A stretch of 64,000 nt of DNA from an uncultured Prevotella sp. (GTDB lineage Bacteria; Bacteroidota; Bacteroidia; Bacteroidales; Bacteroidaceae), in NCBI GenBank assembly GCA_946415755.1, contig CAMKTS010000007.1, positions 39,459 through 103,458 on the forward strand, read 5' to 3'. Positions 22,348 to 22,758 of this stretch are shown here, in pieces. Made by a program: the position numbers and the translations under genes. How positions within the stretch are numbered: the first letter of the stretch is position 1; every line of letters begins with the position of its first letter. The notes under the pieces are model-generated. The model made no database searches, was not told where the DNA came from, and saw nothing but the letters and a program-made list of their open reading frames with translations.

Positions 22348-22758
22348 AGCCTACATAAGACAAGCTATCTTTCTTATTATCAAATCGTTAATTGATGTAG
22401 GCTGCCTGCATAAGCCTGCATGCAGCCTACAAAATTACTATTTTTGACGAATTATTTACCACAGCTTTTAGTATTTTTATCTATATCAAATTGATTTTCA
22501 GACAGTTCCATAAAAGCAAATTTAGAGGTTACTAACTGTAACCATCGGGGTTACTGTCAGTAACCATGCAGGTTACCATGATAAAGAGCCTACTTACTGA
22601 TGTGAACGTATGCTTTATTTCAATAAACCGATGGTTGGCGAAGAGGGCGAACAAACCTGTTTTTACTCATCTTATGTGGGCTATATGTAGGCTTATGCAG
22701 GCAGCCTACATAAGCTAACTGACTGGAATTACGCAACTTAATTCCAAATATGTAGGCT
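22348..22758. repeat. Nested inverted-repeat region between DUF6078 and vapE
   Basis: TGTAGGCT (or rc) at 22348(-),22396(+),22424(-),22686(+),22703(-),22751(+); perfect 23-bp IR 22395-22417/22689-22711; GGTTAC/GTAACC array 22527-22576. Confidence 0.9.

Follow-up and report, generated by a model that had tools for sequence, protein, structure and literature searches.

An alternating array of short DNA repeats lies between two divergent genes in a 64,000-nucleotide stretch of the genome of an uncultured Prevotella sp. (GCA_946415755.1, contig CAMKTS010000007.1, positions 39,459 to 103,458), the whole of which is referred to here as the window. One of the two genes (vapE) encodes a primase-helicase of the BT4734/VapE type, and the other encodes a DUF6078 protein. 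In window coordinates, the locus comprises:

21805..22260, minus strand: DUF6078 gene, Cys-rich, divergent cassette partner of vapE (open reading frame listed to a TTG at 22284; the ATG at 22260 is the more likely start)
22527..22576, no strand: central array of five alternating GGTTAC/GTAACC half-sites at 11-bp pitch, forming two 17-bp dyads at 22-bp intervals and one further half-site
22856..24991, plus strand: vapE, 711 aa, with a BT4734-like_N domain (archaeo-eukaryotic primase, AEP, or prim-pol), a VapE ATPase domain, and a C-terminal winged helix (Pfam, PADLOC/PHROGs, and structure)
24818..24988, plus strand: winged-helix coding part of vapE, residues 655-711, with the specificity residues G673, Q682, R699, and T701

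The original prediction, made from the letters of this stretch, described hexamers starting at 22527, 22538, 22549, 22560, and 22571 with alternating orientation and a constant pitch of 11 bp, and these positions were confirmed in the sequence. The array occupies intergenic DNA, and the open reading frame at 22856-24991 begins 280 bp downstream of it. Across pitches 7-59, the window contains no second alternating hexamer array with at least four sites, and a shuffle check returned 0 arrays of at least four sites in 20 dinucleotide shuffles of the window (pitches 7-39). While the predicted hexamer coordinates were right, the interval 22527-22576 misses most of the feature, as mirrored outer repeats reach from ~22349 to 22757.

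Homologous loci (80, designated by L numbers) were collected from Prevotella and relatives, of which 63, the window among them, carry sufficient upstream DNA. The expectation that the same pitch would recur with different hexamers before vapE homologues was borne out: a five-site alternating array of pitch 11 with a score of at least 25/30 is present in 48/63 loci, compared with 0-2 for each other pitch from 8 to 25 and 0 in shuffles. Control tiles of 600 bp taken elsewhere in the same loci reach a score of 25 in 2/567 cases and 27 in none, whereas 35/63 test loci reach 27. The hexamer word varies by locus (GGGAAC, AGAAAC, TGAAAC, GTAAAC, GGTTAC, and others), with a core that is nearly always ..AAC. 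Arrays scoring at least 26/30 contain 5 to 10 half-sites, and within them the hexamers are 87% identical and the spacers 46-52%. The spacers had been called unrelated, and they are indeed less conserved than the hexamers, but the spacer within GGTTAC-n5-GTAACC often prolongs the palindrome; GGTTACTGTCAGTAACC, for instance, is a perfect 17-bp dyad. The unit is therefore better described as 17-bp palindromes repeated every 22 bp. Recurrence at an identical pitch before vapE homologues supports the earlier reading of a protein-binding-type array with constant helical pitch, although this support does not extend to the suggested filament nucleation. The region is almost certainly a functional protein-DNA site.

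Related layouts extend to more distant homologues. Bacteroides and Parabacteroides relatives (~35% identity) display palindromes every 22 bp at L125, L126, and L128, with L124 being less regular, and related layouts, built from different sequences, also occur at paralogues (34-44% identity) within the window genome. Hexamers can differ within one genome, as observed for L012 (GGGAAC) versus L031/L041 (AGAAAC) and for the window (GGTTAC) versus the GTGAGGAG palindromes of L003. The center of L003 (L003:1125-1210), an own-genome paralogue, consists of 17-bp palindromes GTGAGGAGCCTCCTCAC spaced by 21 bp (10.5 x 2) rather than 22. Another VapE paralogue of the same genome (L004:1246-1336) has mirror repeats TCTGACCC / GGGTCAGA whose arms are only 33 bp apart with no array between them; its layout is related to that of the window but simpler. 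A further VapE-type gene of that genome has (A)TCCTACACTGA nearby, directly repeated five times with a pitch of 12 bp (L005:1340-1422). Separately, L030:1-4141 and L032:2018-6189 are 98% identical, with ~30 bp absent inside the L030 array, either because arrays vary in length or because the assembly collapsed.

The array sits between mirror-image arms in 48/48 array-positive loci, and the arm scores exceed those of all shuffles. The arms are built from a second repeat, which is GCCTACAT in the window and, depending on lineage, GCCGTCAT, CTATACAT, CTATTCAT, AACGTCAT, or others elsewhere. These outer repeats have a set order of orientations (> < > >, array, < < > <) and stand at constant distances from the array center (~115-137, ~155, and ~200 bp), and the distal and middle iterons are mostly 46-47 or 54-55 bp apart. 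Among 45 loci, exact distal copies occur in the expected orientation 30 times on the left and 31 on the right, versus 3 and 0 in the opposite orientation; copies are also few in control orientations and in the stretches beside the array. The window contains the following iterons, with distances given from the array center:

22349..22355, plus strand: distal left outer iteron, GCCTACA(T), at -200
22396..22402, minus strand: middle left outer iteron, inverted, at -153
22404..22410, plus strand: proximal left iteron, GCCTGCA, one mismatch, at -145
22414..22420, plus strand: proximal left iteron, GCCTGCA, one mismatch, at -135
22425..22431, plus strand: proximal left iteron, GCCTACA, at -124
22675..22681, minus strand: proximal right iteron, one mismatch, at +126
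22686..22692, minus strand: proximal right iteron, at +137
22696..22702, minus strand: proximal right iteron, one mismatch, at +147
22704..22710, plus strand: middle right outer iteron, inverted, at +155
22751..22757, minus strand: distal right outer iteron, at +202

Between the distal and middle iterons of each arm, most loci also contain an AT-rich stretch with a recurring TTA..CTGATAATCA..TTA-like sequence, spotted by eye (22366-22391 and 22711-22745 in the window), which is a candidate melting or HU/IHF-type site.

The outer repeats covary with the C-terminus of VapE. With the repeat written as N5-CA[CT], all VapE columns were compared against each base across 50 loci, and for every single base position the best-covarying column falls within the last 40 residues. 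Bases 1-2 track residue 682 (Arg accompanies AA in 12/12 cases, Ile/Val accompanies CT in 16/16, and Gln accompanies GC in 13/15), base 3 tracks residue 673 (Gly for C, 24/25; Ala for A, 17/19), bases 4-5 track residue 699 (His for GT/AT, 23/23; Arg for TA, 19/19), and base 8 tracks residue 701. On a tree built without the winged-helix domain, residue 682 changes 14 times, as do bases 1-2, so the 682 code does not reflect one clade split; for residues 699 and 673, the tree shows five changes apiece. Independent-pairs tests on this tree had too few pairs to reach significance alone, and a held-out test was therefore made using proteins no more than 93% identical to the training set and to one another, down to 45%, with words counted independently of the prediction. 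The residue 699 rule at repeat position 5 held in 19/19 unambiguous, nonredundant held-out loci (Arg with A, 12/12; His with T, 7/7), and the 682 and 673 codes were only partly kept in the distant subfamily.

Pfam domains PF08800 and PF05272 each match VapE with 119.4 bits (gathering cut-offs of 22.4 and 25), and the Walker A and B motifs are intact, with G473-R-Q-G-C-G-K479-x-S481 and L519-D-E-F-D523 invariant across 43 sequences. AlphaFold2 predicts a confident winged helix in which residue 682 lies in the recognition helix (680-688) and residues 699 and 701 in the wing. Covariation, the held-out 699 rule, and this placement together indicate that the winged helix of VapE very probably reads the outer repeats. 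The best PDB fold match of the model is PriRep1 in complex with double-stranded DNA (E 7.5e-5), an initiator helicase of Staphylococcus aureus pathogenicity islands (SaPI). No relatives were found among IMG/VR viral contigs.

Both divergent genes are preceded by the same type of promoter element, and the sequence TACCTTTG is presumably of the Bacteroidota -7-type class:

22820..22827, plus strand: TACCTTTG, -7-type Bacteroidota promoter element of vapE, read in sequence
22282..22289, minus strand: TACCTTTG, the -7-type element for the DUF6078 gene, read in sequence

A sigma-70 scan did not score the TACCTTTG element of vapE. This element separates the array from the ATG, which leaves the array out of the vapE mRNA leader. 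DUF6078 divergently adjoins vapE in 52/103 loci with enough upstream sequence, and arrays and arms are kept without it at L012, L016, L018, and L041; a necessary role for DUF6078 as array partner is thereby ruled out. Covariation of DUF6078 gave one lead, residue 97 with p7, which parallels a deep clade split, and its fold model, built without an alignment, reached a predicted local distance difference test (pLDDT) score of 51 and was not used.

From this architecture, and by analogy with known initiators, we propose that the array is probably the center of a dyad-symmetric bidirectional replication origin used by the adjacent BT4734/VapE primase-helicase, within a compact cassette ordered DUF6078, origin, vapE. 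The C-terminal winged helix of VapE would bind the outer iterons (GCCTACAT), which face each other across the array at fixed distances, and would thus place two helicase assemblies head-to-head around the center. The central half-sites, one per helical turn on alternating strands, might then organize or open the DNA, after which the N-terminal AEP domain could prime synthesis in both directions. We infer that VapE would start replication in this region, with the central array serving as a melting or loading zone. Such a role is favored by the position of the array outside the vapE leader and its persistence without DUF6078. Several observations weigh against it. Covariation bears on recognition, not on replication, and it linked no VapE residue to the inner hexamer. 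The center is not AT-rich (GC 0.40 versus 0.27-0.29 in the outer arms, which form the AT-rich parts), unlike the origins of phage-inducible chromosomal islands (PICI). A clear array was not found in 15/63 loci. The ATPase part of the VapE model is poor (pLDDT <50 at 461-482 and 497-577), and because of this weakness the PriRep1 match is only partial (template modeling score 0.2-0.3). Finally, no excised or circular form of the cassette was found, including in a circularity check of small contigs.

The rival given most weight leaves the outer iterons to VapE and assigns the inner array to a separate reader, such as DUF6078, a host protein, or a protein encoded in trans, for instance at a partition-like or architectural site. 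It is compatible with an origin, altering only the central step, and is a serious possibility, if less likely than not. A sliding-window covariation analysis singled out no VapE residue for the inner hexamer, with the outer-repeat control likewise not decisive, and residues 317 and 597, early leads as its readers, were lost with more data. The near-constant ..AAC core and the frequency of DUF6078 as a divergent neighbor fit a separate reader as well, but arrays occur without adjacent DUF6078, and one fixed host factor is disfavored because same-genome paralogues carry different hexamers (L012 versus L031/L041; the window versus L003). The region between two divergent genes with outward promoters could also be an operator at which VapE, perhaps with DUF6078, autoregulates both promoters with no origin function, as iteron-binding initiators often do autoregulate. 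We consider this unlikely, given that the arrays and arms outlast the loss of the divergent gene, that the array center lies ~240-270 bp from either promoter, and that a 400-bp mirror-symmetric multi-iteron layout exceeds what an operator needs.

The repeats might instead function when folded, as a single strand or a cruciform, in the manner of a priming hairpin or recombination site, and not as duplex binding sites. The single-strand fold of the region does beat shuffles (z -3.4, 0/200 as good), and a cassette has inverted at L058/L076, yet such a z-score is expected of any inverted repeat, and a hairpin requires neither a constant 11-bp pitch over 5-10 half-sites nor equal spacing of both dyad types, which makes this account highly improbable. 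The chance that the array is a recent, functionless tandem duplication of a 22-bp unit is practically negligible: the two 22-bp units of the window are 73% identical, but hexamers were kept while spacers diverged, and the architecture recurs with other sequences at other loci. These two contrasts already contradict such an origin by duplication.

The proposed origin may travel together with its genes. In the window, the corresponding unit would be:

21805..24991, no strand: putative mobile/invertible cassette unit, its ends being the two stop codons, by analogy with L009/L010 and L058/L076

Between the stop codons of DUF6078 and vapE, L009:2965-6124 and L010:2972-6130 have 95.8% identity across 3160 bp, and their flanks are unrelated. 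At L058/L076:2967-6151, the same cassette occupies the same place in opposite orientations, with the immediate flanks unmoved. The boundaries enclose DUF6078 and vapE only, with no recombinase gene in the unit, which suggests, from these comparisons of loci, that DUF6078-origin-vapE is a mobile, invertible unit. At L080:930-1060, vapE ends in a tandem duplication of its final ~46 bp, and at L081 (930-1060, same assembly) the stop codon of the vapE frame comes from the flank; these 3′-end features suggest recent cassette movement. An empty-site search for L058 retrieved the left-flank gene alone and no empty site. 'Plasmid' records OY7257xx were not accepted as proof of a plasmid location, as their genes are of ordinary chromosomal type. 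More tentatively, and with some doubt on our part, DUF6078-origin-vapE or origin-vapE could constitute a recombinase-less mobile mini-replicon that moves and flips as one piece, with its stop codons as exact limits; each lineage would have its own origin 'language', altered by way of a few residues in the winged helix, and many non-cross-reacting copies would thus share one genome. A toxin-antitoxin-like pair, comprising helix-turn-helix (HTH) and HipA genes, travels near the cassette: it stands beside DUF6078 in the window (20238-21817, minus strand) and between vapE and DUF6078 in L023.

The window gene belongs by Pfam to the BT4734/BF3469 family (AEP domain PF08800 plus VapE PF05272), as which the Bacteroides and Parabacteroides relatives are annotated. 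No published origin, DNA target, or comparable layout for this family was found in the literature searched, from which subscription papers were largely absent. Genomes of Prevotella and Bacteroides contain many copies of BT4734/VapE genes, for which the outer repeats would supply the first known target. The analysis also yields a testable amino acid-to-base code at residues 673, 682, 699, and 701, a defined origin-like layout with a novel central element, and evidence suggesting that a cassette relocates and flips with no recombinase of its own. Distinct specificities would explain how vapE paralogues coexist, and the system is a potential source of orthogonal initiator/origin pairs.

Among known systems, SV40 T antigen and papillomavirus E1 offer an analogy in mode of action, with inverted short sites, a symmetric origin, and two helicase hexamers, but differ in having an unrelated DNA-binding domain position and origin layout. 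The alpha protein of phage P4 is a primase-helicase with a C-terminal origin-binding domain and short ori/crr iterons; VapE resembles it by this general description, and no P4-type genes surround the window locus. VirE/VapE ATPases have been predicted to be mobile-element helicases, and the C-terminal winged helix of related primases has been suggested to recognize origins (PMC5862659). The closest parallels appear to lie in SaPI, whose Rep proteins use a C-terminal domain to recognize ori iterons (PMC7581432), and in PICI, whose origins have a putative melting site between two sets of iterons (PMC6092414). The window origin would lie 5′ of vapE, whereas SaPI/PICI origins lie just 3′ of the initiator gene; its iteron sets are strictly mirror-symmetric and enclose an 11-bp alternating array, GC-richer than the outer arms, where the islands have an AT-rich stretch; and its neighbors are DUF6078, HTH/HipA, and polysaccharide genes rather than integrase or phage-satellite genes with att sites. 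Shared with these islands are the paired sets of short iterons close to the initiator gene and the apparent combination of primase, helicase, and a C-terminal DNA-binding domain that reads the iterons, for which covariation provides indirect evidence; as in the PICI papers, where iterons differ between elements, they differ here between lineages.
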